From the NCBI GenBank assembly GCA_920105625.2, contig CAKKTE020000077.1, positions 2,337,723 to 2,401,722 of the forward strand: a stretch of 64,000 bases of DNA, given 5' to 3'. The notes under the pieces are model-generated. The model had not been told where the DNA came from and searched no databases. It saw only the letters and a program-made list of their open reading frames with translations. Shown here piece after piece: positions 14,227 to 51,729 of the stretch. This stretch comes from Clusia tigrina. Taxonomy: Eukaryota; Arthropoda; Insecta; Diptera; Clusiidae. Made by a program: the position numbers and the translations under genes. Numbering within the stretch: position 1 is the first letter of the stretch; every line of letters begins with the position of its first letter.

Positions 14227-14563
14227 TGTAGTCAGTTCCTGTTGTTTCATACCGGTCTTGTCGGTGCTTTTTCTGATTCGCAGAGTGTATTAATATTTGC
14301 GTCAAATTTAAGTGGCAACGCTTCTGAGAAGCGAGATAGCAATAGTGTAATTTAAATGACAGCTGTGATTTGACTGACAGTTTTTTCCCTCTCTCGGGTA
14401 ATCGGAAAAAGCGCGCGACGTCACTGGTTTTGCGCGGGAAATATAGATATATATATATAAAAAAAGATTATTAGAAGCGAATTGTCGCACGTCAAGTGTG
14501 GATTGTTTGTGAATTAAAATTAACTACAAAAATAAAGGAAAATATCGCCCACATTGATTAAAG
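14227..14563 (+). repeat. Element C left LTR
   Basis: This 337-bp direct repeat pairs with 19278-19619. It contains an ATATAGATATATATATATAA block near 14440 that may be the TATA region. Differences from the right copy are the fourth base, a T-run, one base near the end (GCCCACA versus GACCACA), and a shorter TA run. Confidence 0.9.
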
Positions 14564-14564
14564 C

Positions 14565-14579
14565 GTCAGAAGTGGGATT
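14565..14579 (+). promoter_or_regulatory. Element C primer-binding site (leucine-tRNA type)
   Basis: GTCAGAAGTGGGATT begins two bases after the left LTR and matches the element A site. The match to tRNA starts several bases inside the CCA end, as described for micropia-like elements. Confidence 0.65.
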
Positions 14580-14619
14580 ACCTACGAATAAAATTATCAT
14601 TATTTTGCGTAAATACATA

Positions 14620-15279
14620 ATGGAACACATTGGAAAAGATGAAATGTTGGCTGCTCTTCAAGCAGGCGAAATAGATGTCCCACCTACTGCGAGCTTGAGC
14701 CGAATCCGATCACTATATGAAGAAGTCCATCCTCATCAAGGAGCCGATCGCCCTGATGCCTTTGATGCAATTCCAAATGTGAATTCTAACCCTGATGCAA
14801 CTGAAGTAAATGTGAATACAACTGCTGCTGATGCGTGCCGAAACCCTGTTTTAACTGCTGCTAATGTTAGTGCAAATGGGTGCACAACTGCTGTCAATGT
14901 TTGCCAAAACTTTGATGTAACCGATGGTACTGCTAGTGTACATACTTTTAACATGGATGAGCAACTGCTACAAATGCGAAAAGAGCGTGAACTACTATTA
15001 CTGCAGCAGGAAGTGTCTGCTCTTCGTCGGGCTCAATCCGCCACACCGATGACTGCAGCCCCAATTCATATGAATATTAATGTCATTGAATCTATGGTAA
15101 TGCAGTTTACTGCTGACGATACGTATGACATCTGTAAATGGGTAGACGATGTTGAGGATGCATTCGAGAGTCTTCAATTTAACAATAACGCACGTCTCAT
15201 CGCAATGCGGAGGTTGCTTGGGGGCACTGCAAAGATATTTGCTCGCACCATATCTGCCCACACCTATGAAGCTTTATGA
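14620..15279 (+). CDS. Element C Gag, N-terminal part ending at an in-frame TGA
   Basis: The ATG at 14620 opens 219 codons of Gag. A short helical start is followed by an Ala/Asn/Val-rich segment, a coiled-coil-like stretch (LLLLQQEVSALRR), and a capsid-like part (WVDDVEDAFESLQF, LIAMRRLLGGTAKIF). The TGA at 15277-15279 stops translation, but the same frame continues for 844 codons with the rest of Gag and Pol. A single C-to-T change in an arginine codon would explain it; readthrough is the alternative. Confidence 0.8.
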   Translation: MEHIGKDEMLAALQAGEIDVPPTASLSRIRSLYEEVHPHQGADRPDAFDAIPNVNSNPDATEVNVNTTAADACRNPVLTAANVSANGCTTAVNVCQNFDVTDGTASVHTFNMDEQLLQMRKERELLLLQQEVSALRRAQSATPMTAAPIHMNINVIESMVMQFTADDTYDICKWVDDVEDAFESLQFNNNARLIAMRRLLGGTAKIFARTISAHTYEAL

Positions 15280-17820: not shown

Positions 17821-18119
17821 ACCCATTCCGCTAAAATTGCTCGCTGGTCACTTTTTTGGAAAATTACAACTATACAGTGCAGCATCGAGCTGGTACTGCA
17901 ATGAAACACGTTGATGCATTAAGTCGAGCAGGTATATGCATAGTATTCGATGAGTCAGACCTTGACTTTCAGTTACAATTGACCCAGTGCCGAGATTCGG
18001 AGATTGAAACAATTAAATTGAATCTTGAAGCTGGTCCTGTCAACGGCTACGAACTAAACGATGGCTTGGTTTTCCGTAAGTTACCTTCTGAAAGACTCCA
18101 ATTGTATGTTCCTAGGTAG
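17821..18119 (+). pseudogene. Element C RNase H end and RNase H-integrase linker
   Basis: After the frameshift the +1 frame reads ENYNYTVQHRAGTAMKHV and DALSRA, the conserved RNase H end. A linker leads to LQLYVPR just before a TAG at 18117. Comparison with element A (KVKFYVPSDME) shows the stop interrupts pol rather than ends it. Confidence 0.75.
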
Positions 18120-19112
18120 ATGGTTACCAATGTGATTAGAAGCATTCACGAGAAAATAGGTCATTTGGGAGTTGATTAATGCTGTAACCAAATTAGCAAG
18201 AATTATTGGTTTCCTTTGATGAAGACACGTGTCGAGAATTTTATACGAAATTGCTTAAAATGTATCATTTATTCTGCTCCCGCCCGGAATAATCGTCGAA
18301 ATATGTTTAATATTCCGAAGGTACCTATGCCGTTTGATACTATTCATATTGACCATTTAGGCCCGCTTCCGTCCTTCCAGTCTAAGAAAAAGTATGTCCT
18401 AGTTATTGTTGATGCTTTTACTAAATTTACGAAATTGTACTCCGCTACTTCCACTAGCACTAGAGAGGTTTGTTATGCCTTAAGCCAATATTTCTCTTAT
18501 TACAGTCGCCCTAGAAGGATCATAAGTGATCGTGGCACTTGCTTTACTTCCAATGAATTTAAACAATTTTTATATGAACGGAATATTGAACACGTTCTCA
18601 ATGCCACTGCATCCCCTCAGGCAAATGGGCAAGTGGAGAGAGTCTATCGGGTTCTTCGACCGATATTAAGTAAACTCTCTAACTCACTTAACCATTCCGA
18701 TTGGGCTTCTCAATTAACATCTGCAGAATATGCCCTCAATAATACGGTTCATACTTCTACTCGATGCACCCCTTCTGTCTTATTTTTTGGAGTCGAGCAA
18801 CGCGGTAAAGTCATTGATGAATTAACGGAATATTTAGCAATTAAAAACGAAAGTATGAACAGAGATTTAGGAAAATTGAGGTGTAAAGATGAGGAAAACA
18901 TCAGCAAGTCACAAGAGAGTAATCTAAAAAATTTCCTGAGGTCACATACTGCAGCACCTGAGTTATGTAGTAATACGAAATGTCGAAAACAGCGTAGAAA
19001 GTAACAAAAAACTGATTCCTCGATATAGAGGCCCTTATGTTGTATGTAAAAAATCACCGAGTGACCGATATGTTATTCGAGATGTCGACGGGTGTCAAAT
19101 AACTACCTTATA
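18120..19112 (+). pseudogene. Element C integrase
   Basis: The integrase starts with a zinc-binding segment broken by a stop (IHEKIGHLGVD then TAA at 18178). The frame 18216-19004 holds CLKC, the catalytic triad (D in IDHLGP, D in ISDRGT, E in GQVERV) and the FFGVEQRGK block shared with element A. After the stop at 19002, RYRGPYVV marks the GPY/F module, and the frame degenerates near 19112. Catalytic residues are intact, but the protein is split by stops. Confidence 0.85.
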
Positions 19113-22343: not shown

Positions 22344-22576
22344 CATGGTAATGGTAATGGTTGTACAGGTTAGGCTAAGATCTTTATGCACTGCGACCAA
22401 CTTGATCTATTGTGCGTTCCTTCGTACTTAATTATTTAGTATACTTAGTATATCAAGGAATCGAACCAACTCCTTTGGAGGGAGCATTTGAAGGTCTTCA
22501 TCTTCTAGTATATAGAAATCGAAGATCCTGTGTCTCCTGTGGCCTAATGCATCACAGTTGGTGATTTGGTGTCCAA
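22344..22576 (-). pseudogene. LINE M: ORF2 C-terminal end and 3' tail
   Basis: On the minus strand, reading from 22576, the frame gives GHQITNCDALGHRRHRIF followed by DFYILEDEDLQML and VRFLDIL, then stops near 22430. This continues the cysteine motif left at 31930-31960 (CRFYCDEEESMG), completing the C..C...H...C pattern seen at the C-terminus of RNase-H-bearing LINEs. The tail ends in a repeated ATTACC at about 22345-22360, beside env1, so M was probably inserted into env1. B2 interrupts M between the two parts. Confidence 0.7.
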
Positions 22577-22737
22577 TGTTGGGGTCCGTGTTTGGTTGAC
22601 GGGGGACGTCCTTCTGCTGTGCGCGTGTGGCTGAAAACCCTAAATCACTCTTTGGAAAAATCACCACATTACACTTTTAGTTTCTAAATCACAAGCCATT
22701 TATTCTTACAAATACTAATTCTTATATACTATTTCTT
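22577..22737 (-). repeat. B2 3' LTR fragment
   Basis: Plus-strand TGTTGGGGTCCGTGTTTGG and the following 140 bases match 31448 onwards with small changes. After about 22737 the match stops at a T-rich tract, so roughly two-thirds of the LTR is deleted. Confidence 0.8.
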
Positions 22738-23276
22738 CTTTTTTTTCAAATTCGCCTTATTTGGGTTCTATTATTGTTTTCTTTTTATTTTTTGTTTTGT
22801 GTTCTTTTGGTTTATTTTTATTTTACTACTTCATTTTATAGTTTGTTTTTTTCTTTTGTTTTGTTCTTTTAGTTCTAATTTTTTTTTTTAGTTATATTCC
22901 CCTTTTTATGTTTGGTCTTTCATCGACTCTTTTCTCACTGACGTATATACAATCAAAATTACAAACTAATTACATATTTAGGTAATGCTACGCTTTCATG
23001 AATACGGTCGTCTGCAATTGTTGGTCCTGGTAATGCCCGTCCTGCTAGAGTGAAGTCGCTCGATGAACTCAGCATACCCCTCCCTTCTTTCTGGATCGGT
23101 ACGTACAAAGATGTTATAGGTTGGCGACTTGGTTTGCCATTAAAACTTTGCTTTTAGTAGCCTTCTTCTTTCCATTTATATAGCGTGCCCTACGGCTGTA
23201 GGTGGTACTGCCTCTGCTTATAGTATTCAACTTGTAAAAAACATTTGGAATACATGAGAGATTACAATACTCCTTC
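22738..23276. other. T-rich noncoding stretch
   Basis: The first part is strongly T-rich on the plus strand (TTTTT/TTTTG runs to about 22920). No gene, repeat unit or LTR end could be recognised. It lies where the missing outer part of the B2 3' LTR and any env should be. Confidence 0.4.
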
Positions 23277-23651
23277 TTACTTTGCAGCAATGCGTTTTAT
23301 GGTGGAATTGTTACTCTTTGGCTTTCTCATAATTTTATTTTTTCTTTCGTTGCCTTCGATATGTACACTATCGGTATTTCTCTGAGATACACTCTTAATG
23401 AGGTAATCTGTGTACACTGATCGGATACCAGTCTCTGTGTCCTCTTGTATTAAATCATATTTCATATATAAATCACATTTCATATGTTCACACTCTAAAT
23501 TGGACATATACTTCAATGAAGCAATTAACTTCCGTAGGCCAAATTTCTTCTGCTTATTATATTTGGTTACAGTCACCCTCCTTAAGCTTTTACCCATCTT
23601 CAACTTATCCAAAATCGATTCTGTTGAGATTGTGATACACTGGGTGGACAT
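23277..23651 (-). CDS. Hypothetical ORF, 124 codons, unrecognised
   Basis: The ATG at 23651 opens a lysine- and serine-rich basic protein with two Cys residues near the middle (NLECEHMKCDLYMKYD). No domain, signal peptide or membrane segment is seen. It lies in the part of B2 between the post-pol spacer and the 3' LTR fragment, where family B is expected to carry env, but shows no resemblance to env1 or env2. It may come from an unrecognised insertion, and the ORF could be chance in AT-rich DNA. Confidence 0.25.
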   Translation of the reverse strand: MSTQCITISTESILDKLKMGKSLRRVTVTKYNKQKKFGLRKLIASLKYMSNLECEHMKCDLYMKYDLIQEDTETGIRSVYTDYLIKSVSQRNTDSVHIEGNERKNKIMRKPKSNNSTIKRIAAK

Positions 23652-25281
23652 TGTAATATAAAATTGTCCAATTCAAAGCAAGACTCCGCAAGGAAACTTG
23701 TTTATTTTTCGTTGCTTGTCAATATCTCATCCACAACGCGTTCAAATGCTGCGGCCATATGCCGTTTCACAAAGAAAAATAACTCCGTCACCATTCATCC
23801 CCAATCCAATATATTGGCATCCTTGCGGTCACAACCGGATTCCCAAACCTTGGATAGCTGCCAGAAATCTCTGATTTTCAAAAACACATCTTTCCGAATA
23901 ATACGTTTGTCACATCATCAAAAAGGAATACTTACAATAATTTTCTTAATTTTCTAGTTAAGATTTCAATTTGATATTTTTCTGTTTAATTTTAGCCGAA
24001 CATTTCATAAGTTAATTTCATAAATCAATTTCAAAATTGTATAATATTTATACAAATATACTACATATACTATATATACTCTTGGGTATAATTTTCCTAT
24101 TTAGTATAATTTGTGTTTTCTTTGGATTATTACATTTCTTTCTTTATAAATTTAGAATTTAAATAGATAATTTCTGTAACATTAATTATTTTCTAAACTA
24201 CCTTTAATTTTAATCTGAACTTTTACACAGATTATAATTTTTTTAATCTTTAACTTTTCTTAAACATACAAACATTTCTTGAATATATTAAAAAAAAACA
24301 AAATTTCTATAATATGCTTATTCTATAATTGAATGCTATATCATTCAATTTGCGTCCACTCGTCTTTTCCCCTTATATTCTTGGATTCGCTACTGCATCA
24401 TAGAGGAAAAGAGGACTGGACTATGTGTTATTATTGCCATATAGGGCATCAGTTTGGCTTCGATAAATTTTCCGTGCTCTTTTTTAATACGTGAGCTATC
24501 ACCCATTTCAGTTTGAACAAATTCATTTGTCCTCTGACATAAAACAGAATATTTAAGATAAACTCGTTTATGTAAAAACATTGTCCATTGCATGACTGAA
24601 CTCTTCATTGCATATACTACTCTATATATTTAAATTTTACTACTAGCCCGGTATGTATATATCCATTAACAAGTGTAGTACATACATTCAAGGCATTTTA
24701 TAATTAATTGTTTAAAATTAATTGCTACAGTTATTACCTAATGTGTAATGGTAAGCTAAATATATTGTTCTAATTCAATATACGAGTATGTATATACTCG
24801 TATATACATTACTATTCCCCACACGCTAATTTCCTAAGCGATAAACCGAAAAAAAAATCTATGTATATTTACATGTCGCCTGCTACAGTATGTAAATATC
24901 TGCAAAAATATAGTTACGTACATACCCATTCCTCTTAACTAGAATACTTACTTCTTTAAATATACGTTCGTACATTCACTCTGTATATTATACACATATA
25001 TTTACATATATACTTACTTCACCACCGGTGCCGTTGCCTGGCGTTAACGCTTATTCGTCGAATTTCATTGCATACACTGCCGTATGTATGTATGTACATA
25101 TTTGAAGTTAAGTTTTATAATACTTACCCACGACTGTCTTATGATTTTATATTTTAATTACGTGCAATGAACCCGTTTCTTATTATTTAATATATAAAAA
25201 ATATTTTTCTCTACTGTGCTTCGTTCGGCCATAGTGCCTAATAAGCACATTTTGCTTACGTCAATTATACTCGCTCGATTT
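23652..25281 (-). other. B2 post-pol spacer, AT-rich, noncoding
   Basis: From about 24250 to 25281 the complement matches the B3 spacer. One landmark is the block around GATATAGCATTCAATTATAG (near 24330); another contains GTTGCCTGGCGTTAACGC. TATG and TATA tracts are common. From 23652 to 24250 no match to anything else in the window was recognised. Small ORFs here are not supported. Confidence 0.55.
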
Positions 25282-25899
25282 TCAGTGGCTCACTTCTACT
25301 GGCCTTGACTTTGAGAATCGGAGCTGTGTGTTATCCGATATACACACGTACATGTTTACGTTGTTATTCTTGTATTTACAATTGTAAAGCACTGTTAACA
25401 CATGTCTTAAGTTGTGTGATCTAATGTGGAACAATTTCAACAAGTTATTGAAGTTATTATGTAGCTTTTTATTCTTGCCCTTAATTGTTACGACTGTTGT
25501 AACTGGGCTGCGGATTTCTGCTACTACATACGGACCTATCCGCACAGGTGAGAATTTGTTTCCCCTAGCCTGATTCTTCATGAGTACTTGATCACCCACG
25601 TGAAAGTTTACTGGATTTATTACCTTGTTATAGGCTTCCCTGGCTACTCGTTTAGCACAATCCTGGTTTTCTCTGACCAACCCGTGCGCTCACTGTAGCT
25701 GGTACTTCTGCACTTAATTGGGATCGTCAGCATTGTATATTGGCGCATACTTTTTTATGTCTCTGAGCATACCTTTCCACCCGTACACTCGCCTAATTCT
25801 GTCATGGGTTTTCCAGAATCCCTGGTGTCCACCTAGGGGTGAATCATGGAAACCCTTTAACACAGCCTGGATATCTTTTTTATCCTCCAGCCATTCCAC
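25282..25899 (-). pseudogene. B2 integrase: zinc-domain start fused by deletion to C-terminus
   Basis: The frame from 25899 reads the start of the integrase zinc domain (FHDSPLGGHQGFWKTHDRI, DIKKYA). It then jumps to PIYNADDPN, which in B1 and B3 lies after the catalytic core. The entire DD-E core (roughly 0.9 kb) is therefore missing. The frame 25680-25282 carries the C-terminal module (VGDQVLMKNQ, IGPYVV, KLHNNFNNLLKLFH). It ends in a 40-residue tail not seen in B1 or B3. Confidence 0.8.
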
Positions 25900-25947
25900 A
25901 TTACTGGCTGTTCGTTCATTGGCATCGAAACCCGCATTGCTAACATC

Positions 25948-26640
25948 TCATGTAACATCAATTTTATCTTCTGGCATTCTCTTGGCCTCCTCCTTATCTG
26001 ACCGTGCTTTGGCCCTTGTTTGCACTACTGATACTTTCTGTGCCTGCGGTACTCTGCTGAGTGCGTCCGCATTCAGATTCTTCTTCCCAGGTTTGTATAT
26101 GATTTCAAAATTATACTCAGACAACTTGTGCCTGAACCGGGCTAGCCTAAACGTTTGGTCTTTCAAATTGGCTATGCCTCTCAACGGCTGGTGATCAGTG
26201 TATATCTTAATTGGGCGACCTAGCAGATATGCCCTAAAATTCTTCGTAGCCCACACTATGGCTAGAAATTCCTTCTCTATTGTAGAGTATATTTTGCCAG
26301 TGTTGCTAAGCGCTCTGCCTGCGAATGCTATTGGTCGGTCATTACCGACTTCCCCTTGTGATAAATCTGCTCTTAATGCTTCATTGCTAGCATCAGTGGT
26401 CAACAAGAAAGTTTGCTCAAAGTCGGGGTACGCCAAAATTGGTGGCGAGTTAATTATTTCCCTTAGCCTCTCGAATGCTTGCTGACGGCTCTCTGTCCAT
26501 TCGAACTTTGCTTATTTTCTTAGCAATTTATTCACTGGCAACGCAATTGCGGCTAGTCCTTCTACGAACTTTCTGTAATAGTTCACTAGTCCTAGGAATG
26601 CTTGCACTTCCTTTTTATTCCTCGGGATTGCTATATTTTT
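25948..26640 (-). pseudogene. B2 RT connection and RNase H
   Basis: The main frame (26436-25948) carries RNase H: LTTDASNEALRADLSQGE with the first catalytic D, STIEKEFLAIVWA with the E, YTDHQPL, and NADALSRV. Upstream, FLGLVNYYRKFVEGL-type sequence can be read in another frame up to 26640. A stop in the connection (from a changed base near 26515) and frameshifts separate it from RT. Confidence 0.8.
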
Positions 26641-27480
26641 AAACGCATTCCACCTTCTGCGGGTCAGGCAGTGCTCCTGCTCTGAGCAACGATGGCCTAA
26701 ATAAACACTCTCTTCGCAAAAATTGACACTTCTCCGTGTTTAATTTCAAATTGTCTTCTCGTAATTTCTGGAGCACCTCGCACAAGCGTTGCGAATGCTG
26801 CTGCAAGTTCTTTCCATAAATTACAGTATCATCCAGATACACAAAACAATCTAACCCTTTGCAAGCCTGTTAGCACATGGTTCATTAGCCGTTGGAAGGT
26901 AGCCGGTGCTCCTGTTAATCCAAACGGCATTCTATTAAACTCATAATGCCCTAAACCGGTGCTGAGCGCGGTTTTCTGCTTATCTTGGTTATCCACTAGA
27001 ACTTGGTGGTAGCCACTCGCTAAATCAAGTGTAGAAAAATATCTACTGTGTCCCAATTGATCCAAAATTTCCTGTATCCTTGGTATCATCAGTGGCGTTA
27101 TTCAGTTTCCTAAAATCAACGACCATTCTCCACTTCTTCTGACCCTGAGCACCTCCCTTCTTTGGTACCAAAATTATTGGTGAGTTCCAAGACGAGATAC
27201 TCAGTGAAATTATGTTATCCTTTAACATTCCTTCCACTTGCCTATTTACCTCATCTTTGTGAGTCTGTGGATATCTGTACTGTTTCTGGTTAATTGGTGT
27301 TTGATCCACTCTAGTAGGTATTTCATGCTCTACCTCTGGTGTATATGTCAACTGGCCTCCTTCCAGCAAAAATATGTCATGGAATGACGCACAAATGGCT
27401 TCTATTGATGCCTTCTCTTCTGAATTTACGCTTGGGTCTAACTTCAGTGATTCTAGCACTCTCTCCATTCTTTTTCTTAT
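26639..27480 (-). pseudogene. B2 reverse transcriptase
   Basis: Frames 27549-27043, 27089-26829 and 26842-26639 together cover RT. They include fingers (ISSWNSPIILVPKKGGAQG), palm (FSTLDLASGYHQVLV, FNRMPFGLTGAPATFQRL) and the catalytic YLDDTVIYGKN, where the second residue after DD is T instead of I. The thumb is frameshifted: RECLFRPSLLRAGALPDP replaces the B1 version REVVYLGHRCSEAGAL. The same shifted reading occurs in B3, caused by the same small deletions. Confidence 0.85.
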
Positions 27481-27500
27481 ATCAACTTGTTTAATCTGAT

Positions 27501-27962
27501 TTACCGATCTATAATTCGGTTCCTTAAAATTATCGTAACTAGTGAACACACAAAAGTAAGGATTCTATTCTTATTATTATCATAGAAAGATAACTGCTTG
27601 TCGAGCGCATCCAGTATGGTGCGGCCCCAAAGATTATCGCGGCCAATTATCCCATCAGCCGGGATACCTTTCCTATCCACTTCCACTGCGTGCACTCTAA
27701 AACTGATACCCTTAACTCCACTGTGCCCTATTCTGAGCGACCCCAATGTCCTAATGCACCCTCCAAACGCTTCGTTAAGCGTTCTTAAGACCATTTGATT
27801 AATGTCTAGCCCCTTCCGTAAAACACTAGATCTTACGAGGCTAGTGTCCGCCCCTGAATCTACTAATAGCACTAGCTTTCCACTCGCTGCCTCCTCGCAG
27901 GGTATCTCGATGAAGGCATCACCTATCCTGCTTATAGCGTAGCAACCTCCTTTTGTTCCCAA
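27501..27962 (-). pseudogene. B2 aspartic protease
   Basis: The frame holds an intact-looking retropepsin core: KLVLLVDSGADTSLV (catalytic D), then GCIRTLGSLRIGHSGV, and ADGIIGRDNLWGRTILDAL. At about 27545 the frame leaves family sequence: some 230 bases of linker present in B3 (from SWQEGTVTRD to PKFPSYDN) are deleted, joining protease to a later part of the linker out of frame. Confidence 0.8.
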
Positions 27963-28102
27963 TATGGACGTGTATGCACTCCCTAACTCTTCGTGATACT
28001 GGAGAGCCTCTTGCTCCTCCTTCTCCTGGACTGTAGTTCCTACATTATTAGTCGCACGTACTTCCGGCGTAATTATTACTCTCTTTCTTTTGGGTTTCCA
28101 GT

Positions 28103-28513
28103 CTACTGGCCTCGACTGGGCCGCTGGAAGTTTCCCTGGTTCCTTTGTTGGGATTGCCTATCCCTGAATTCCGCTGCCCGATGTCCCATTCGTCCACATG
28201 AGAAGCATCTCAATCCCTGTATATTATTGCCTATCCTTGGTTCACTTCTAGAATCCCAACTTGGTCGCTGCTGACCACTCCCAGTTTTGAAAGGATTTCT
28301 TCCTTGGTTAATTCCTTCCGTTGAATTAACTAGGGGACTACTGAAGTTACCCCTGCTGTCCCTCAAAGGTGGAACCGGGCGCCTCGTAGCTGGATGCCTA
28401 CTTTGATCCCATTTAGTGTCTACTTGCCTCATGACCGTAAGTTTGGCACTCCATACAGTAGGGCGTGTTTTTCCGTGTAACGCATTCATCCCTTGTGTGC
28501 CCTGGCTTATCAC
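28103..28513 (-). pseudogene. B2 Gag C-terminus with CCHC-like motif
   Basis: This frame continues Gag after a frame change at about 28413. It contains CFSCGRMGHRAAEF, a zinc-knuckle-like motif whose last Cys is Phe, and ends SRGQ just before pol. Pol is in the -1 frame, which fits normal gag-pol frameshifting in this group. B3 has the same layout at 54038-54448. Confidence 0.65.
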
Positions 28514-30332
28514 AGAATGAGCAAATGGGTTTCCTTGACTGGAACCTCCGAACCAGGAATTCCTGGTCTCTTTGTTCCGGAAATTGGCCCATCAATCTAC
28601 CGACTCCACATCTGTTTTGCTGCTGTACTGTTCCTACCTCTGCTGGAGCAGTCGCCCAGCAGATTCCACCTGTTGTCGTTCGCTGTTGTATTGCTGTTTC
28701 AGCGAACGAGGCCACTTCCACTAGCTCTGCCATACTCCTCGGCGTGAGAGTAAGAGTATAATTAGCTAAGTCCCTATTTATCAGGCCTGCCTTGAACACA
28801 GAAATCCAAGTCCGTTCTACTTGAGCCTTGTATGCTGCAACATTTTCTGGAAACTGCCTATTGGCTTCCGTCTCAGCAGCATTCCCTAGAGACTGGAGCC
28901 TTCGTCCCCAGGCTCTCAATTCCTCCCTCGGTGTTGATTCCTGAATTTCCCTGAATTCTGCCAGGGTGCTTACTGAGCTATGCACCAGTAAATCAAAAGT
29001 ATCACCTGTGGTTCTTTGCCTAATACACTTTATTAAATGTTCCCCGTCCGCTTCCGGAACACTCTGTTGCGCTAGCTCACAACCTTCTTTAAAGCGCCGG
29101 ATCTCAGTTCTCAGATCATACAACTCGACTCCTGAGAACATGGGCACCAACTTCTGCACCGCATGAGCAACTTCCAGAATGCCCATTTTATTCCTTTGTG
29201 TTTTCTCAATTGCTGGTAAAACCTTAGCTTTATTAATCTCTTTGGTAGTTTCCAAATTCACTTCTCCCGGATCTGAGAGGTAATTGGCCAGTGACGGACT
29301 CAAACTAGTTAGTCTTCGATTGTTTGTTCTTACTGGCGAAATATTGTCCCCAGTATCGGGACTTTGCTGCACTGTTACCGCTTCCGGCTCCTCTGGCGGA
29401 TATCCCTGATTTTCGTTATTTATCGGGCTTCCCGGAGAAAAAGGCTCGACACCGACTTCAGATGCGCCAAACAAAAATTCCGCTTGCTTTTCTTCACTAA
29501 GTACTAATTTTGGCTTCACCATGCGGCTTATCCCTTCTGGTGTTAAATATTCCGGCCAACGTACTTCCGGAGGCAATGTCAATACTGTCTGCGTAAATCC
29601 AGCCGATGCTGATTTTGATCTCTCCCTATTCAGTGAGGTCCTATTGGTCGCCCGTCCTCTTTTCAATTCCACACACTCCTTTTCCAACAGCGTTGCTGCT
29701 TCCTCTGTTTCCGTCAATCTGTGACAAAGTTCCTTTACCTTCTTCTCAAGATACTCTTTTTGTGCTCTCAAATCTTCTGTTTTCTTATGAAAATTGAAAA
29801 ACTTTTCTTCTGTTCTTCTTTGGATTGCCGTAAAGGCTTGATCCGCTATTTCTAATGGTGACACAGCTCCTCCGGCATTCGCCTGCTTCCACAATTCCTG
29901 AGCTTCTTCCCTGCTCGTACTCGCTTCGAACTGGTCAAATATTTTCCCAGTAAACAGTTCCACCTCTGACTGCATTGATTTCAATCTGTTCCTTACTTCC
30001 TCGTCTGGTGAAACCAAACTCACAGTTTGTTGTCCTAATTCCACTAATTCAGAACTAAATGTATCTGCCCATTCTTTGACCAGACTATTTATGTAGTCTG
30101 CGTAATTTTCCGCAAAATATTTTCCCTTGCCGTACTCAACTGCGTGAGGCAACAGCAGTCCGTGATTATTGTTGAACTCTCTCCCCAGATTTTGCAACTG
30201 TGTTATTCGCTTGCGGTAATACACGTTGTCCTTACGTAACCTGCCGTCTTTCTTAAAATTACGGACCAATTTTTCAATCGCTTCTCCAATTTGCTCCTGC
30301 ATCAGCAGTAATCCTTGCGCTTCATTCGTCAT
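28413..30332 (-). CDS. B2 Gag main frame (long coiled-coil Gag)
   Basis: From an ATG at 30332 there are about 639 codons. The N-terminal 240 residues are rich in charged heptads (coiled coil expected around KEYLEKKVKELCHRL and LTETEEAATLLEKE). A VRWPEYLTPEGISRMVKP block and a capsid-like region follow (MFSGVELYDLRTEIRRFKEG, LLVHSSVSTLAEF). Two knuckles close it: CSFCDKPGHTRDEC and CMECQTYGHEASRH, where His replaces the last Cys. The TAA right after it is shared with B3 and cuts off the third knuckle. The left arm of the large inverted repeat begins inside codons 4-5. Confidence 0.8.
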   Translation of the reverse strand: MTNEAQGLLLMQEQIGEAIEKLVRNFKKDGRLRKDNVYYRKRITQLQNLGREFNNNHGLLLPHAVEYGKGKYFAENYADYINSLVKEWADTFSSELVELGQQTVSLVSPDEEVRNRLKSMQSEVELFTGKIFDQFEASTSREEAQELWKQANAGGAVSPLEIADQAFTAIQRRTEEKFFNFHKKTEDLRAQKEYLEKKVKELCHRLTETEEAATLLEKECVELKRGRATNRTSLNRERSKSASAGFTQTVLTLPPEVRWPEYLTPEGISRMVKPKLVLSEEKQAEFLFGASEVGVEPFSPGSPINNENQGYPPEEPEAVTVQQSPDTGDNISPVRTNNRRLTSLSPSLANYLSDPGEVNLETTKEINKAKVLPAIEKTQRNKMGILEVAHAVQKLVPMFSGVELYDLRTEIRRFKEGCELAQQSVPEADGEHLIKCIRQRTTGDTFDLLVHSSVSTLAEFREIQESTPREELRAWGRRLQSLGNAAETEANRQFPENVAAYKAQVERTWISVFKAGLINRDLANYTLTLTPRSMAELVEVASFAETAIQQRTTTGGICWATAPAEVGTVQQQNRCGVGRLMGQFPEQRDQEFLVRRFQSRKPICSFCDKPGHTRDECVTRKNTPYCMECQTYGHEASRH

Positions 30333-31424
30333 ATCCCAAATGCAAGAGCAGATGGCGTATCCCAATTACAAATAAAAATCCAATAATTGTAAAAACTTGT
30401 TCCAATATTTTATTCTATCTTACTTAATGATTCAAAACAGAGTTATTAACAAAAAACATTCCACCGTAAATTTATCTTTATATACATATTCTGCTATACT
30501 TGTTTTCCATCACAAAGTTCCATATCCGCTGTCTACCGGCGTCCATTAAGTCCTTCCATCACTGCAAATTGGTCCTTGACTTCCTCACAGATACTCCTTG
30601 TTTTCCTCACATATATCCCTATATCCCAATCACCAACTTTAATACTCCCAAAATTGGATTTACAGGCAAAAATGTCTTGATTCATTCCCGGAAATTTGAA
30701 TCCATATTTAATAAAAAAAAACCCGTAACGTATGCGACATGTAATAATAGCATTTACATGTTTTCTTCAACATTGCTACGCAAATTGTAGTTTTGGAACT
30801 ACACAAACTTTGATGCAACAACACGTGTTGTCTGCATCTCTTCACCTAATACCCTAAACTCAAAATGCCAAATATTTAAATCAATCTTTATTTTGATTTC
30901 AAAACAATATAAATTGAATCATATAAATGTCCCTACTGACAAACAAAAACAAATCCTCTATCATAACCGTACGAACCCTATACCGTGGCACGTTCTTTCC
31001 GAACCAAACTAACCGGTATACACAAGTTCGCAATTCAATAACGCAAAATCCGTGAATAAACAGACACGTCCCACATCCCCCGAGAATGCTGAAACAAGAA
31101 GTAAGAAAAAATATAAGCCTAATCTCAGTGAAATAAACCTATACAACCTGACCATTAAAAATTTTCGAGGATCAACCTAGTGTCACCTAACCGCAGCGAC
31201 TATTCAGCCCCGATGCTGCTTCTTCTGCATGACCGGCGCAAAAGCGCCCACACGGCCACCGAAGAAGCGTCGACAAAATGCACTTAAATACTAAAGTATC
31301 CTAATATAAGCATACTCACCAATATCCTTGCTCCCTCCATTGAACTCCTTTTAGATGGTTATCCTAATGGTTTCCTGTTGGTGGATTCCCGCGTAGGAGT
31401 GCTCTTTTCCTAGCACTCGACGTT
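30333..31424 (-). other. B2 5' leader, noncoding
   Basis: No credible ORF lies between the PBS and gag. The whole leader is inside the left arm of the inverted repeat and is copied at 33671-34763. Landmarks are the palindromic ACACGTGT near 30820 and the GC-rich TTTTGCGCCGGTCATGCAG region near 31230 (minus). Confidence 0.7.
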
Positions 31425-31444
31425 GGATCCTACCGGCTGCGCCA
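31425..31444 (-). promoter_or_regulatory. B2 primer-binding site (serine-tRNA type)
   Basis: On the minus strand TGGCGCAGCCGGTAGGATCC begins three bases after the LTR. It resembles the serine-tRNA PBS reported for the 297/17.6/ZAM group. Confidence 0.75.
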
Positions 31445-31447
31445 AAA

Positions 31448-31929
31448 TGTTGGGGTCCGTGTTTGGTTGACATGGGGCGCCCTTCTGCTGTGCGCGTGTG
31501 GCTGAAAACCCTAAATCACTCTTTGGAAAAATCACATTACACTTTTTTTTAAATCACAAGCCATTTATTCTTACAAATACTAATTCTTATATTCTATTTC
31601 TTAACAGTCATCTCAGTCTGTGAACTGACCTTTCTGGTGTTCCAGTTCCGCACCTGCTAATTGGTGTCAGTTGGCTTGACCAACTGACCTAGTATGAAAT
31701 TGACGACGCTGCATTACAATGCCCTCGTCGAATCGACTGCGGAACTGTATTACCCTAAAAGTTTACTTAAAACATTACACAGATCATATTAACTTATACT
31801 TGGACCCTAAAAGTATGTTCTATTCTTAAATAACGATTAGCACATGCTAATCCAACAGAGTGTGGCATCTATTAGGAGTCGATACTGTGAGTCAGCTACT
31901 CGTAGGTAGCTTGATTCTAACTCACAACA
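31448..31929 (-). repeat. B2 5' LTR (482 bp, reference B LTR)
   Basis: On the minus strand it runs from TGTTGTGAGTTAGAATC to GGACCCCAACA, with perfect short inverted ends (TGTTG...CAACA). One edge abuts the PBS and the other abuts LINE M RNase H sequence. An exact-length inverted copy lies at 33166-33647. Confidence 0.9.
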
Positions 31930-32520
31930 CCCATAGACTCCTCTTCATCACAGTAGAATCTGCAAATGCTCGTGCTACATATACCTATTTTGTGGATGGC
32001 CAGTTCGTTGAGTGCGTTGTTACACTCTATAAGGACTTTTGATGTAAATGTGTAGCTTTTAAGAGCTTTGAGGACTGATTGACTGTCTGAGAGTATTTTA
32101 ATTTTCACTCCTTTAAGTCCTCTTTTAGATAAGATTTCCACTGTTTCCATTATAGCATAGAGCTCCGCATGGAAAATCATGGTATCTGCACTTAGGTTTA
32201 TTGATTTGTGTGCTCTAGGTCCCACTATTCCTGCTCCTACCCCCTTGAGCGTTTTGGATCCATCTGTATACCATTTTTGCGAATCATCGTGTAGCCATGT
32301 TGGGCTATCGTTCCACTCCTCCATTGATGAGAATATGACATTGTACCTCTTGGTGAAATTGAGTGCTAAGTCTGTGTGGTCACTTGCCTGGGTCATGCAC
32401 GTAGCATCTTCGACCAAATTTAGAATTTCTAGGTGTCCAGTGAGATTTGCTGGTTTGAATTTTTCATTTGTATGGATTGAGAGTGATTGCCTTGCAACTT
32501 CGTCTTGTATTGCTAGGCCC
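31930..32520 (-). pseudogene. LINE M: RT C-terminal part and RNase H
   Basis: The minus frame reads GLAIQDEVARQSLSIHTN, then a linker, then RNase H: WYTDGSKTLKGVGAGIVG with the first catalytic D, FHAELYAIMETVEI with the E, ILSDSQSVLKAL with the next D, and NALNELAIHKI. It ends in CRFYCDEEES at the B2 insertion. RNase H after RT is typical of I, R1-like and LOA-group LINEs. Upstream RT is not present in this orientation: sequence flips near 32520. Confidence 0.8.
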
Positions 32521-32698
32521 ATCATACTATATGGGGCATTGGTATGGTGGGGAAAAACAAAACAAACAACAGCCATATTAAAACTGTGCAAATTACAAAG
32601 GCTGGCATGCCTAAGCATTACAGGGGCTATTAGAACTACCCCCACTGCTGGCATGGAAGCGCTGTTAAATTTACCACCGCTACACCTAGCAATACAAG
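32521..32698 (+). pseudogene. LINE M: plus-oriented RT C-terminal fragment in palindrome spacer
   Basis: Plus-strand reading gives ILYGALVWWGKTKQTTA, then LACLSITGAIRTTPTAGM and LPPLHLAIQD, the LINE RT tail that should directly precede the EVARQ stretch found in minus orientation at 32397-32515. The fragment thus faces away from the adjoining one. After LAIQD it joins the right arm at TQASDH, skipping about 40 codons. Confidence 0.75.
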
Positions 32699-33165
32699 AT
32701 GACCCAGGCAAGTGACCACACAGACTTAGCACTCAATTTCACCAAGAGGTACAATGTCATATTCTCATCAATGGAGGAGTGGAACGATAGCCCAACATGG
32801 CTACACGATGATTCGCAAAAATGGTATACAGATGGATCCAAAACGCTCAAGGGGGTAGGAGCAGGAATAGTGGGACCTAGAGCACACAAATCAATAAACC
32901 TAAGTGCAGATACCATGATTTTCCATGCGGAGCTCTATGCTATAATGGAAACAGTGGAAATCTTATCTAAAAGAGGACTTAAAGGAGTGAAAATTAAAAT
33001 ACTCTCAGACAGTCAATCAGTCCTCAAAGCTCTTAAAAGCTACACATTTACATCAAAAGTCCTTATAGAGTGTAACAACGCACTCAACGAACTGGCCATC
33101 CACAAAATAGGTATATGTAGCACGAGCATTTGCAGATTCTACTGTGATGAAGAGGAGTCTATGGG
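32699..33165 (+). pseudogene. LINE M RNase H, inverted second copy
   Basis: The same RNase H residues as 31930-32396 (YTDGSKTLKGVG, FHAELYAIME, SDSQSVLKAL) read on the plus strand, because this is the right arm of the palindrome. It ends at the inverted B LTR. Confidence 0.85.
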
Positions 33166-33647
33166 TGTTGTGAGTTAGAATCAAGCTACCTACGAGTAGC
33201 TGACTCACAGTATCGACTCCTAATAGATGCCACACTCTGTTGGATTAGCATGTGCTAATCGTTATTTAAGAATAGAACATACTTTTAGGGTCCAAGTATA
33301 AGTTAATATGATCTGTGTAATGTTTTAAGTAAACTTTTAGGGTAATACAGTTCCGCAGTCGATTCGACGAGGGCATTGTAATGCAGCGTCGTCAATTTCA
33401 TACTAGGTCAGTTGGTCAAGCCAACTGACACCAATTAGCAGGTGCGGAACTGGAACATTAGAAAGGTCAGTTCACAGACTGAGATGACTGTTAAGAAATA
33501 GAATATAAGAATTAGTATTTGTAAGAATAAATGGCTTGTGATTTAAAAAAAAGTGTAATGTGATTTTTCCAAAGAGTGATTTAGGGTTTTCAGCCACACG
33601 CGCACAGCAGAAGGGCGCCCCATGTCAACCAAACACGGACCCCAACA
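33166..33647 (+). repeat. B LTR, inverted copy in right arm
   Basis: 482 bp, TGTTGTGAG...CCAACA, the reverse complement of 31448-31929. No gag-pol follows beyond the first codons, so this is a 5'-end fragment and not a separate element. Confidence 0.9.
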
Positions 33648-33650
33648 TTT

Positions 33651-33670
33651 TGGCGCAGCCGGTAGGATCC
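33651..33670 (+). promoter_or_regulatory. B primer-binding site, inverted copy
   Basis: TGGCGCAGCCGGTAGGATCC follows the LTR after TTT, as in B2. It is part of the right arm. Confidence 0.75.
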
Positions 33671-34775
33671 AACGTCGAGTGCTAGGAAAAGAGCACTCCT
33701 ACGCGGGAATCCACCAACAGGAAACCATTAGGATAACCATCTAAAAGGAGTTCAATGGAGGGAGCAAGGATATTGGTGAGTATGCTTATATTAGGATACT
33801 TTAGTATTTAAGTGCATTTTGTCGACGCTTCTTCGGTGGCCGTGTGGGCGCTTTTGCGCCGGTCATGCAGAAGAAGCAGCATCGGGGCTGAATAGTCGCT
33901 GCGGTTAGGTGACACTAGGTTGATCCTCGAAAATTTTTAATGGTCAGGTTGTATAGGTTTATTTCACTGAGATTAGGCTTATATTTTTTCTTACTTCTTG
34001 TTTCAGCATTCTCGGGGGATGTGGGACGTGTCTGTTTATTCACGGATTTTGCGTTATTGAATTGCGAACTTGTGTATACCGGTTAGTTTGGTTCGGAAAG
34101 AACGTGTCACGGTATAGGGTTCGTACGGTTATGATAGGGGATTTGTTTTTGTTTGTCAGTAGGGACATTTATATGATTCAATTTATATTGTTTTGAAATC
34201 AAAATAAAGATTGATTTAAATATTTGGCATTTTGAGTTTAGGGTATTAGGTGAAGAGATGCAGACAACACGTGTTGTTGCATCAAAGTTTGTGTAGTTCC
34301 AAAACTACAATTTGCGTAGCAATGTTGAAGAAAACATGTAAATGCTATTATTACATGTCGCATACGTTACGGGTTTTTTTTTATTAAATATGGATTCAAA
34401 TTTCCGGGAATGAATCAAGACATTTTTGCCTGTAAATCCAATTTTGGGAGTATTAAAGTTGGTGATTGGATATAGGGATATACGTGAGGAAAACAAGGAG
34501 TATCTGTGAGGAAGTCAAGGACCAATTTGCAGTGATGGAAGGACTTAATGGACGCCGGTAGACAGCGGATATGGAACTTTGTGATGGAAAAAAAAGTATA
34601 GCAGAATATGTATATAAAGATAGATTTATGGTGGAATGTTTTTTGTTAATAACTCTGTTTTGAATCATTAAGTAAGATAGAATAAAATATTGGAACAAGT
34701 TTTTACAATTATTGGATTTTTATTTGTAATTGGGATACGCCATCTGTTCTTGCATTTGGGATATGACGAATGAAG
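33671..34775 (+). other. B leader, inverted copy, with truncated gag start
   Basis: Noncoding leader copied from B2. The gag ATG at 34763 is followed by only four family codons (MTNE) before the arm ends at 34775. Confidence 0.75.
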
Positions 34776-35190
34776 GATTAATTACCCCCTTGGACAGTGA
34801 TTTTTGTATTCTGGCTGTCGTTGGGACATCTTTAAGTTCTTCACAGAAGTTTTTCCATGATTTCCTCAGTTCCTTATTGTATAGTGTCAGGGATTTCTTA
34901 TATTCCTCCCATGTTTTGTATTTCTTTGCGTCATTGAATTTGGACCTTGCTACTTGACGCAAATTAGCTAGTTCTTTGTTCCACCAAGGGACCTTCTTCG
35001 TTGAGGTTTTTGTATTGAGTGGACTACATTCGTGATATGAGGATATAATGGAGTCAGTCAGAGCTTCAACTGATGCATCCAATTCCTCTGTGGATCTTAT
35101 GTGAAGCATGCTTCTGGTTAGCTTAGTTTCTAAGCACTCTGAGTATTTATCCCAGTTTGTTGATTTAGGGCTTCTTCAGAGCGTTTTAGG
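34776..35190 (-). pseudogene. LINE M: endonuclease-RT linker fragment
   Basis: The minus frame reads STNWDKYSECLE, then VPWWNKELANLRQVARSKF, YKKSLTLYNKELRKSW and KNFCEELKD. This is the region just before RT in jockey/R1/LOA-type LINEs; LINE L has the matching PWWNSEI segment near 37480. It ends abruptly at the palindrome's right arm, so the RT fingers and palm of M are missing. The polarity agrees with the minus-oriented RNase H part. Confidence 0.75.
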
Positions 35191-35340
35191 CCGACTGGTG
35201 TTGCTTGTAGCTTTTCTTGTCTTTGCTCTGTTGGTTGTTGAAAAGAAGAAACATCAATTACTTTTAAAAGAAGAAATAACTGTTTCCTCCTTGTTCCTTG
35301 TTCAGACAGGCCAACACTGCATATTTGTGCTTTAACATTT
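35191..35340. other. Junction between LINE M and LINE L
   Basis: Minus-strand M coding sequence fades around 35190 with a stop upstream. LINE L begins by about 35341. The exact edge and any target duplication are not visible. Confidence 0.35.
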
Positions 35341-36618
35341 TTTGAGTCGAATAACTGTCCTGGTTTATTTACCTACTTAGCCCCGCTCCCAGCCACAAGC
35401 GCATCCTCACAGGGTCATAAAAACCCTGCTTCGGACCACCCCAGCACAAGGACTGCTAGGCCGGGTGCTAGGGTCGCCCCTCCGTCCGTTCCTCGGACTG
35501 GTACAGGGAGAGCTTCGGCAAATAAGCCGACCTCCTCCAGCACGGGCCCCAGCACCAATCTCCCTTCAGGTGCTCGCACGCATGTGAATGCGTCTACACG
35601 GGAGTACACAACCCGGAGGTCCGCCTTCAGGATTCTGCAAAGGTTGGAATCCGCCGACCGCGCATCAATGTCGGATAAAGACAAGGGAGCGCTTGCATGG
35701 GCTCACCAAAATATTGGTGCTCGTGCGCAGCCACCCCCTGAGGGTGCTCAGGAACGACAACGGTCGACTGACCACCCCTCCCAATCAATCGTGCGGGAAA
35801 CTAATCGCCCACGACTGGCTTCCAGGCCGAGACTGACTCGGCCATTTAATGAGGTAGCCAAAGAGGGCCTCATCTGGGCAATCGTTGACACTGGAAACAG
35901 TGACGGTACCATTTCCCAAGCGAACTGGAAGATGGTGGAGAAGGCCCTTTTCAGGATCTATAGGGACATCCTGAGGGTCAATCCAGGCCCTTCACCTGTA
36001 TGCCGGGACGCGGCATGGTATCAGGGGCACGTGAAGCTCATCGCGTGCTCAGATGAGCGCTTGGCTGAGCTTTATAAGATGGCCATCTCAATGGTTGGCG
36101 AAATCTGGCCGGGGGCCAAGCTCTTAGTTGTTCCCAGAGACCAGATCCCGAACCGCCTGCGTTCTAGGGCCTGGGTTCCGGCAGAGCACTCCTCGCCGGA
36201 AGAAATTCTGTAGTTGCTTAGGCTCAGCAATTACGCCCTCCCCACGGATGACTGGAAGGTCGCAAAAATAAGCGAGCCCAAGGGCAACTCTCGAGAGATC
36301 ATCATTATTCTTAATGAGGACTCTCTAGCCCCTATTAATGCCAAAAAGGGAGAGATCAACTATGGCTTTAGTTCGATCTCACTCAAGGTCTATAGGAGTG
36401 ACAACCAGGGAGCATACAAGCCCCCCATTCAGGCCAAACCGGATCTCACCTTCGATGATGGGGAGAGTTACGCTTCGGCCTCAGAATCGGTTGGCAGTTT
36501 CTGCGGACGTCCGATAACTAATATCGCCGACGTTGGTGATTCTCCTCTGTCAGAAGAGAAGGCAGCCTGCGTGACGATGATGGCCACCTCCGGGAATGGT
36601 GAGGGTATTACAGATTAA
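35341..36618 (+). pseudogene. LINE L ORF1 (DUF4780-like RNA-binding/Gag-like protein)
   Basis: The frame is open from before 35341 to 36618 with a single TAG at 36211. The N-terminal part is Pro/Ser/Arg-rich. From about 35860 a folded domain follows: LIWAIVDTGNSDGTIS, DAAWYQGHVKLIACSDERL, GAKLLVVPRDQIP, then beyond the stop NYALPTDDWKVAKI and INYGFSSISLKVYR. This resembles the DUF4780 domain of insect LINE ORF1 proteins; there is no CCHC knuckle. No ATG is visible in frame near the start. It overlaps the ORF2 start by 23 bases. Confidence 0.7.
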
Positions 36619-39546: not shown

Positions 39547-42650
<3,104 letters not shown>

Positions 42651-42670
42651 TACTAACTCCTCCCCCTCTT
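42651..42670 (-). promoter_or_regulatory. Element E polypurine tract and 3' LTR start
   Basis: On the minus strand AAGAGGGGGAGG is followed by AGTTAGTAGGGTGC. LTRs starting AGTTA right after a purine tract are typical of gypsy-like errantiviruses. The far end of the LTR was not fixed. Confidence 0.65.
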
Positions 42671-44016
42671 AAACGTAGCCGTCCTCGGCTGGCTGTGCAG
42701 GCCCGGTAGATCTATTGGAGCGCCAATTCCTAATGAATTGGAGCACTCTTAGGTTATTCTGAGCCTCCTTGTTCCTCTTTCTAGATTTGCAGACCCAAAG
42801 GATTATGACTAGTGCCAGCGTGGCCACGGTTATACGACGTGAAATCAGTTAGGTTCACTGTATGGAAGAAGGAATACCCGCCCTCAGTAAAGGTGTCCTT
42901 TTGGGGTTTATGTAAGAGGTGCCGTTAATAAGAACTTGAGAATCGAATGTTATTAGCACAGTACCATTCACCTTTACGGGCGCCCTCTTTGATACCTCGA
43001 TTATGGTGGGTTGGCTCCTTAAAAGTATGACTCCGTCGTCGATAGTCCGAAGATAGTGGAAGGCTGGAACCGAATTGCAGGATGAAGAAAAGTTGTTCGC
43101 CAAGCGACTAACGCAGGTGTAGGATGGGTTGCGCTCGCAAAACCACATCGTCTTGTCGGATGGTTTGCAGGTTAAAGTGGGCAGGAAAGTTCTGTCACAA
43201 TTGGCTAAAACGGACGAGCCCAAGGACAGGACAAATCTATTTTCCCTAACGACAGGAAAAACTAACATACGCTCGTAGACTCGATCCACAATTGGGTATT
43301 TGACCAGGAAGTACAGCTCCGTTTCACTCTGGTACAGTGAAAGTATTTGAGACGGCTATAATACTCATTACTGTCACATTTCCCGAATGCTCCTCCCTCA
43401 CTAGCTCTTCCACCTCACGGGCGTCCAATAACGTGGGATTTACGACGTTTAGTCTAGCCATCGCGATGGAATTCAGGAGGTTGTTTAATTCCATCATGAT
43501 CACCCTATTGCGGCTGGTCACCAAAGAGAACAGGCTGGCTGAGACAAGCCTATCCCGTTTGGTGGGTCTCATGAGCTCGTTCACGGTGTGGCTTAGGTGT
43601 CGAATATGTTCCTGCATTACAGTATTGACGTGTATTTGTTGCCCGTGTGATGCGATTAACCGGTCTTGAGTGCGCGTAAGAGCTTGGAAGTCATCGGCGT
43701 CGGGAGTGCCGGCAATGAATTTTAAAGCCGAACCCAATATGTCAATGCCGCGGGCATGCCTATGATGAACCTGAATCAGCTGCAGTAAGCGGCTGATCTG
43801 CTCAATGTCAGCTTCAATTAGTTTCCTCATGTGGGATTCCGGGCAGTATTGAAGGATATTTTCCGACTGTTCAACCGTTCCCCAATACTCCGACAAGTTG
43901 GTGGCATGACGCAAATACCCGTGGTCCGTAAACAAGGCTACCTTTCCTCCGGTGACAGGCACATAATAGGAATGGTTGTAATCATGGATGCTGCATCGCA
44001 TGTCATGCAGACCCAA
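42669..44016 (-). pseudogene. Element E Env (errantivirus-type envelope), two frameshifts, copy 1
   Basis: The frame from 44016 covers the surface part and a fusion-peptide-like segment (GIDILGSALKFIAGTPDADDF) followed by a helical region, as in gypsy-type Env. A frameshift near 43325 moves to 43289-42855, which carries the cysteine-rich ectodomain (FCERNPSYTCVSR, FSSSCNSVPAF). A second shift near 42850 leads to a membrane segment (VATLALVIILWVC) and a basic tail (KSRKRNKEAQ), ending at 42669. The signal peptide lies before 44016 and is not clearly in frame. Confidence 0.75.
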
Positions 44017-44132
44017 TAGTAACCTGCAACGATGTGGATGTAAGTGGCGAGGATGGTTATAAATTAATTATGGGGTAGTTAAGCTAGATTCTTGTGCCTG
44101 CCTAACGCAGATTGTCCTTGTCTAGAGCTTGC

Positions 44133-44492
44133 CTAACGCAGATTGTCCTTATGAACCACCCTTCCCTTAATTATGACCTTGGATCCGAGGTCCCTTTCGA
44201 TTGTGGCCTGTGAATAAATCTTGGTAAGTTTGTTACCTAGCCTCCTATTCGATTTTATGAAAACCTTACGCCCTGGTTGGAATAACCGCGTTCGCTTTCC
44301 CCTATTGAGGTTTCTCAATTCCGATTCCTGTGCGGTCTTCAACCTTTCAATCACCGCGTCCCTTAGCTCGTCCGGAATGGAGTATGTTGAGAAGTTAGGC
44401 TGGCAGGATCGCCATGTAGGGTATGTTGACAAGTTAGGCTGGCAGGATTGCCATGTAAGATATGTTGATTGTTGTTCACGCAGGATCGGCAT
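44133..44492 (-). pseudogene. Element E Pol C-terminus (integrase end), copy 1
   Basis: The frame ends with KVFIKSNRRLGNKL and GSKVIIKGRVVHKDNLR, the characteristic end of errantivirus integrase just upstream of env. Upstream is a tandem duplication of about 14 residues (STYLTWQSCQPNL, STYPTWRSCQPNF). The protein is cut at 44503 by the D LTR, so the rest of E pol is missing. A 25-base duplication (GACAAGGACAATCTGCGTTA) follows the stop. Confidence 0.75.
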
Positions 44493-44502
44493 TCAATTCA
44501 TT

Positions 44503-45107
44503 TGCAGATTCTATACAATGCATAGATGCAAAAGAGCACTATAAAATAGAAATGCCTAACACGAAGCGGAAAGACGCCCTCAGTAAAGGTTTTGACCGGC
44601 AGAGTGTGCCGTTGGCCAAGCTATTGTTTGTGCTGTTCTAAGACTTTCCTGACTTAGAGCACGAGAGATAAAAAGAATAAACTAATGCGAGTAGCAGTTT
44701 CAGTTGTCTTCAGATTAACTCTGCTTTATTTGGTGGCTCGCTGGCCTTTTTATATTATTGAATTCTTATTGTTTTCATATCCTAACTAACATAAAATATA
44801 TCTATCTTATTTCCACTAGTTACAAATCATATTCCCGAAATTTGTCTCAAGTATCGGATTACCGATATTATTCATTGACGAATCATCGTCTTTGTTTATA
44901 TTAATAATTTTGAGTGCAAGTTCAGGGCTAAAGTCACTGCACTGTCTAATATGCATACGCTGCACCACCAAAATGCTAGTCTAGCGTATTTTGGTATTGA
45001 GTGCAATTGCGCACGTTGCGCTATTGTCAGTTTGTTTGCATATGCGACTTGTTGCTGTGCTTATGACGATGTGTGGTCGTCAGTGTACACTTGTGTGGTA
45101 CACTACA
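44503..45107 (-). repeat. D(-) 3' LTR
   Basis: On the minus strand it runs from TGTAGTGTACCACAC to AATCTGCA, 605 bp, preceded by the purine tract AAAGGGTGAGGG. It matches the D(+) LTR 59770-60394. Confidence 0.85.
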
Positions 45108-47716: not shown

Positions 47717-49877
<2,161 letters not shown>

Positions 49878-49895
49878 TACTAACTCCTCCCCCTC

Positions 49896-51243: not shown

Positions 51244-51359
51244 TAGTAACCTGCAACGATGTGGATGTAAGTGGCGAGGATGGTTATAAATTAATTATGG
51301 GGTAGTTAAGCTAGATTCTTGTGCCTGCCTAACGCAGATTGTCCTTATCTAGAGCTTGC

Positions 51360-51719
51360 CTAACGCAGATTGTCCTTATGAACCACCCTTCCCTTAATTA
51401 TGACCTTGGATCCGAGGTCCCTTTCGATTGTGGCCTGTGAATAAATCTTGGTAAGTTTGTTACCTAGCCTCCTATTCGATTTTATGAAAACCTTACGCCC
51501 TGGTTGGAATAACCGCGTTCGCTTTCCCCTATTGAGGTTTCTCAATTCCGATTCCTGTGCGGTCTTCAACCTTTCAATCACCGCGTCCCTTAGCTCGTCC
51601 GGAATGGAGTATGTTGAGAAGTTAGGCTGGCAGGATCGCCATGTAGGGTATGTTGAGAAGTTAGGCTGGCAGGATTGCCATGTAAGATATGTTGATTGTT
51701 GTTCACGCAGGATCGGCAT
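51360..51719 (-). pseudogene. Element E Pol C-terminus, copy 2
   Basis: Copy of 44133-44492 with the same tandem duplication; the first unit here reads CQPNF where copy 1 reads CQPNL, so the two units are slightly more alike. Confidence 0.75.
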
Positions 51720-51729
51720 TCAATTCATT

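Follow-up and report, generated by a model that had tools for sequence, protein, structure and literature searches.

Organization of the locus

The window, as the whole stretch of DNA analyzed in this study is called, covers 64,000 nucleotides of the genome of the clusiid fly Clusia tigrina (assembly GCA_920105625.2, contig CAKKTE020000077.1, positions 2,337,723 to 2,401,722, forward strand). It contains a long palindrome within two nested retrotransposons: a minus-strand long interspersed nuclear element (LINE), designated LINE M and taken here to be jockey-like, and a long terminal repeat (LTR) element, designated B, that is inserted in it. Element B has TG...CA LTR ends, pol domains (RT_RNaseH) and a target-site duplication, as LTR retrotransposons do. 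LINE M resumes on the far side of B, at about 22574-22576 and below, and the empty insertion site reads through in LINE M copies. The left arm of the palindrome extends into the remainder of B, where the RT_RNaseH domains lie. The 3' LTR of B aligns with the 5' LTR over only 163 bp (22575-22737), the rest of it being missing or replaced.

The arms carry what the first-pass annotation had named, namely a B-family LTR, a primer-binding site (PBS), the leader and the LINE M RNase H region. An RNase_H match (PF00075) was located at 31917-32732 on the minus strand, together with the two 482-bp LTRs. The motif TGGCGCAGCCGG next to the LTR is presumably the PBS, judged by its position and motif. The coordinates of all features are collected in Table 1.

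Table 1. Features of the palindrome and of the retrotransposons around it (positions in the window)
Feature	Position	Strand	Remarks
LTR retrotransposon B inserted in LINE M	22577..31929	-	target-site duplication CCCA (31930-31933) / CCAA (22573-22576)
5' LTR of B (left arm)	31448..31929	-	482 bp, TG...CA ends
LTR copy, right arm	33166..33647	+	482 bp, TG...CA ends; 2 differences from left-arm copy
PBS-like site TGGCGCAGCCGG	33651..33662	+	right arm, 3 bases after LTR; left-arm copy at 31433-31444, minus strand
Gag start (ATG and first codons)	34763..34775	+	outer end of right arm; continues into antisense LINE M
LINE M RNase H-side piece, left arm	31930..32517	-	329-bp internal deletion common to both arms
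Upstream part of LINE M	34776..35182	-	5'-truncated near 35182; adjoining ~1.27 kb missing
3' part of LINE M beyond B	22345..22576	-	ends in CCAA half of target-site duplication
Left (original-side) arm, full extent	30320..32517	-	2,198 bp; start of gag (codons 1-5), leader and LTR of B, LINE M piece
Right (inverted-copy) arm, full extent	32685..34775	+	2,091 bp; without counterpart of 32397-32503
True loop	32518..32684	+	167 bp of LINE M sequence, inverted relative to flanking LINE M
Left-arm LINE M sequence deleted from right arm	32397..32503	-	107 bp; 1-bp microhomology
Inner junction, LINE M head to head	32517..32518	.	0 bp microhomology vs. 29 LINE M copies
Outer junction, gag codon 5 of inverted copy to upstream LINE M	34775..34776	.	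1 bp (G) common (21 copies)

Arms and loop of the palindrome

The inverted repeat was confirmed when 30320-32396 was aligned, gaps allowed, to the reverse complement of 32699-34775: the 2,078 columns hold 9 mismatches and two gaps of 1 bp each (99.47% identity in the BLAST pair), and 8 of the 9 mismatches are transitions. The right arm has an extra T opposite 30499/30500 and the left arm an extra C at 30625. These two indels shift the pairing by one base between about 30500 and 30625, so the exact register claimed earlier for the whole repeat (n pairs with 65095-n) fails there: at that fixed register 97 mismatches appear, 90 of them within 30502-30625. Of the two places where arm-specific variants had been announced, the one near 33460 holds true variants (33458/33459), whereas near 34468 there is only the 1-bp indel opposite 30625. 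Other arm-specific variants lie at 34107, 34138, 34483, 34623 and 34629. The longest perfect stretch between the arms measures 759 bp (31638-32396). When the window was shuffled five times by mononucleotides, the longest exact inverted matches reached only 15-20 bases, so a chance origin of the arms is excluded. The arms are long and inverted and thus able to pair, as at hairpin RNA (hpRNA) loci of the Drosophila type.

The 302-bp spacer reported between these arms has the extent given, but it is not a simple loop. The sequence CTTGTATTGCTAGG at 32504-32517 has its complement at 32685-32698, which adds a 14-bp arm pair inside the spacer, and the difference in full arm length (2,198 vs. 2,091 bp) corresponds to the 107 bases at 32397-32503 that are absent from the right arm. 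This hidden pair and the right-arm deletion rule out a simple palindrome with a 302-bp loop and leave a loop proper of 167 bp. The 14-bp inner repeat was also considered as a pre-existing homology that could have primed a fold-back; this is unsupported, as the repeat is simply the inner end of the arms, set apart from the rest by the 107-bp deletion.

Comparison with other copies in the genome

The locus was compared with LINE M at 30 loci, namely the window itself and 29 other copies. A search with the spacer gave 79 matches (best 40 of 257 candidates scored), and all 302 bases occur in one piece only in the window; other copies match the spacer as two pieces on opposite strands. The loop runs directly into the arm, uninverted, in 28 of the 29 LINE M copies retrieved. 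The remaining copy (L030) fell below the 350-bp length filter, and its short match is uninverted too. The sequence that begins at 34776 in the window sits 1,258-1,275 bp upstream of the loop in 21 of the 29 copies, on the expected strand in all 21; in the other 8, the DNA examined gave no match long enough to count. Given this uninverted, contiguous order in the other copies, the loop has been inverted in the window, and LINE M has lost about 1.27 kb there. The ancestral order is thereby read from other LINE M copies (28/29), not from an allele of the same locus. The segment between the inverted duplicates is thus itself inverted, as in staggered-break inversions, and a duplication is present at only one of its ends.

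In a search with the B LTR and leader (best 40 of 4,844 candidates scored), no further copy of the LTR/LINE M arrangement was found, as none of the 39 other matches passes query base 933, the LTR edge. Other matches to 31000-31930 in this search are 78-95% identical, mostly 84-87%. Six B copies (L003-L008) were compared with the arms; four of them (L005-L008) come from one tandem array, which leaves three independent loci. At G000:C1:87084055-87165773, ten B LTR/leader matches lie on one strand with spacings of 8,726-10,228 bp, 6 of the 9 within 8,740-8,751 bp; this is a tandem array of LTR-element copies.

Order of events and age

Both arms hold the border between LINE M and the LTR, so B was inserted before the duplication; likewise, the 329-bp LINE M deletion is older than the duplication because it is present in both arms. 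Divergence between the arms is low, at 9 of 2,076 aligned sites (0.43%). The Kimura two-parameter (K2P) distance between the LTRs of B is 0.033 over 157 alignable sites, a rough value given how little of the 3' LTR is alignable (163 bases). This order of divergence agrees with an insertion of B first and a later duplication. When the differing sites were compared with L003-L008 and with the related element in the window, the right arm was derived at 7 of the 9 (30466, 30472, 30502, 30611, 30988, 31636 and 31637) and the left arm at 2 (30348 and 30957). At 30502 the copies are split, five having G vs. A in L003 and in the window's related element. At the inner junction, 32517/32518, the window matches neither LINE M continuation.

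Origin of the palindrome

The palindrome is probably the scar of one local break-repair event in nested retrotransposons, without a dedicated hairpin function. The sequence comparison shows that B was inserted into a 5'-truncated, minus-strand LINE M. Later, a stretch that starts at LINE M position 1501 (numbering of copy L012) and extends through the RNase H region, the LTR and leader of B and four codons of gag was duplicated in inverted orientation, the inverted copy lying directly beside the original, and about 1.27 kb of adjoining LINE M was lost. Because the loop is turned round with respect to the LINE M that flanks it, the structure matches exactly the outcome of a small staggered-break inversion. 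The event may thus have been a small inversion in which one staggered break (~2.2 kb, on the left) was filled in and end-joined and the break on the right was lossy; a double template switch, or a sister-chromatid fusion with re-breakage, could yield an equivalent product. The 107-bp deletion shortened the right arm either afterwards or in the course of the event. From the 0-1 bp of microhomology we infer that the joins were made by end joining.

Several points weigh against this explanation or limit it. A target-site duplication of LINE M linking 35182 and 22345 was looked for and not found. The sequence at 34776-35182 may belong to the same LINE M insertion, an assignment that draws on order, strand and similar divergence only. 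The microhomology figures are indirect, because other LINE M copies stand in for the 1.27 kb that this copy has lost. The excess of derived changes in the right arm (7 vs. 2) is not significant by itself, and the age suggested by the low arm divergence is a lower bound, as gene conversion could explain that divergence. Both searches drew on the best-scoring candidates. That no dedicated function exists is a judgement, which we regard as most likely correct.

An alternative that we regard as rather unlikely is the classical fold-back route, in which a broken end gives rise to a dicentric intermediate and a breakage-fusion-bridge cycle. It would account for a spacer between inverted copies and for an adjacent deletion, both of which occur in the human cases described in PMC3907307. 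Yet at the 13 human junctions reported there the inverted microhomology was 2-8 bp and the spacers measured 766-70,466 bp, compared with 167 bp here, and at the spacer junction no inverted microhomology of at least 2 bp was found (0 bp vs. the LINE M copies). Fewer steps would also be needed for a double template switch or for an inversion with a staggered break. An artefact of assembly, either a single-read fold-back chimera or a mis-join between repeats, appears improbable. Long near-perfect palindromes are a known type of library artefact, and the contig containing the window is a 3.1-Mb piece, one among 666. Nevertheless, the arms differ by 9 substitutions, two indels and the 107-bp deletion, with derived states in both, and the right outer flank is upstream LINE M on the expected strand and in the expected place, an arrangement that a random chimera would not produce.

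A transposon in its own right, of the Foldback or terminal-inverted-repeat type, was rejected: the outer ends lie inside gag and LINE M, and comparison of the flanks (...TTGCG and GATTA...) revealed no duplicated target site on the two sides of the palindrome.

Potential for a hairpin RNA

The locus might instead be a working hpRNA locus, at which a read-through transcript would form long double-stranded RNA that Dicer cleaves into small interfering RNAs (siRNAs) against B and LINE M. The first-pass annotation had proposed that such RNA would fold back, and the predicted fold of 31300-33795 bears this out (-2245.5 kcal/mol; arm register is kept by 1,095 of the 1,190 pairs). The arms contain long perfect stretches (759 bp). 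The genome encodes Piwi-domain (Argonaute/Piwi) proteins (13 matches), and hp-ODox2 of Drosophila simulans, whose arms consist of sequence from the transposable element (TE) BS2/Jockey, is described as producing siRNAs (PMC10317233), which provides a precedent. The arms also share 21-mers with their potential targets. Each of the six B copies has 192-317 of the 1,108 21-mers of the gag-start/leader part and 23-79 of the 462 of the LTR part, and each of the 29 LINE M copies has 8-267 of the 447 of the LINE M part (median 246). The proposal that the hairpin is directed at the B family thus holds in part, but on these counts LINE M would be matched best, and the hairpin's own parent element fully.

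The anatomy of the locus points the other way. The LTRs stand head to head and face outward, so transcripts started in them would leave the loop uncrossed, and a hairpin would need a promoter outside the arms. No promoter has been shown for such read-through; only TATA-like words were listed over 30001-36500. The nearest upstream plus-strand element lies at 14536-19004, and minus-strand elements lie at 43-47 kb. Past the loop, a transcript of either strand meets the AATAAA of an LTR in sense orientation, at 33526 on the plus strand or 31569 on the minus strand; if this signal works as it does in other LTRs, it might end the duplex before the PBS and leader. This argument is weak because such hexamers are frequent in 30001-36500 (13 AATAAA/ATTAAA words on the plus strand and 14 on the minus strand). 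In the account of Aedes aegypti in PMC12076837, moreover, TE-derived siRNAs had a limited effect on TEs. A hairpin RNA is possible and would be physically plausible, but it is not favoured by the anatomy, and we think it improbable that the locus works in this way. Still less probable is an animal locus similar to Mu killer of maize: a recent inverted duplication, with LTR promoter, PBS, leader and a LINE RNase H piece, that would give siRNAs against two unrelated retrotransposon families. In a variant of this idea, the outward-facing LTR of the right arm would make RNA antisense to LINE M (34776-35182).

The locus allows the birth of a long transposon-derived hairpin to be traced in full, since related copies within the genome reveal the element that was hit, the insertion into it, the break and the inverted copying. 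Detection of small RNAs would make it an hpRNA locus at an early stage and of known origin; without them, it would be one more local inverted duplication in nested transposons.

Other repeats in the window

Further repeats occur in the window. A 4,371-bp direct repeat (40491-44861 and 47718-52088; 99.5% identity, 22 mismatches, spacing 7,227 bp) begins in (AT)n arrays; it is a recent tandem duplication with open reading frames in which, for the first copy, the Gypsy env domain PF07253 was identified. Two elements related to each other but oppositely oriented are 98.2% identical at 27552-28955 and 53591-54999, compared with 81-94% in neighbouring parts, a contrast that suggests conversion or recombination between elements. 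A 307-bp direct repeat (59770-60076 and 63694-64000; 100% identity) reaches the end of the window and is possibly an LTR pair.

Comparison with known systems

Like Drosophila hpRNA loci such as hp-ODox2, the palindrome is a long inverted repeat of transposon sequence; unlike hp-ODox2 as presented in PMC10317233, it has outward-pointing LTRs in its arms and is known from sequence alone. Mu killer consists of a transposon end duplicated in inverted orientation, and in the account of PMC3440606 the transcripts of silencing plants were short antisense RNAs that start inside it, while a read-through hairpin stayed a proposal. The palindrome resembles Mu killer in being a partial inverted duplication of a transposon end and promoter with the potential to form a hairpin. 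It differs in that Mu killer derives from a plant DNA transposon and its silencing has been shown (PMC3440606), whereas an LTR element and a LINE are joined here, in an animal. Among mosquitoes, loss of Dicer-2 in A. aegypti changed TE expression little, although the authors note that trans-acting long hairpins were possibly missed (PMC12076837), and gypsy elements of Anopheles gambiae are reported to give many PIWI-interacting RNAs and very few siRNAs (PMC4423592).

With the human fold-back duplications described in PMC3907307 the palindrome shares two inverted copies, an unduplicated (disomic) spacer and a neighbouring deletion. In contrast to those megabase-sized rearrangements, it is of kilobase size and interstitial, with a 167-bp spacer that is inverted relative to the retained flank and with 0 bp of microhomology. 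For Drosophila, PMC7584159 describes inverted duplications at the ends of inversions and the difficulty of separating models of their origin. Unlike those staggered-break inversions, the locus in C. tigrina comprises only a 167-bp loop and a copied arm, inside transposons; one of its ends is duplicated, and 1.27 kb was lost at the opposite one. Like them, it has an inverted duplication flanking an inverted segment and junctions of the end-joining type (PMC7584159).

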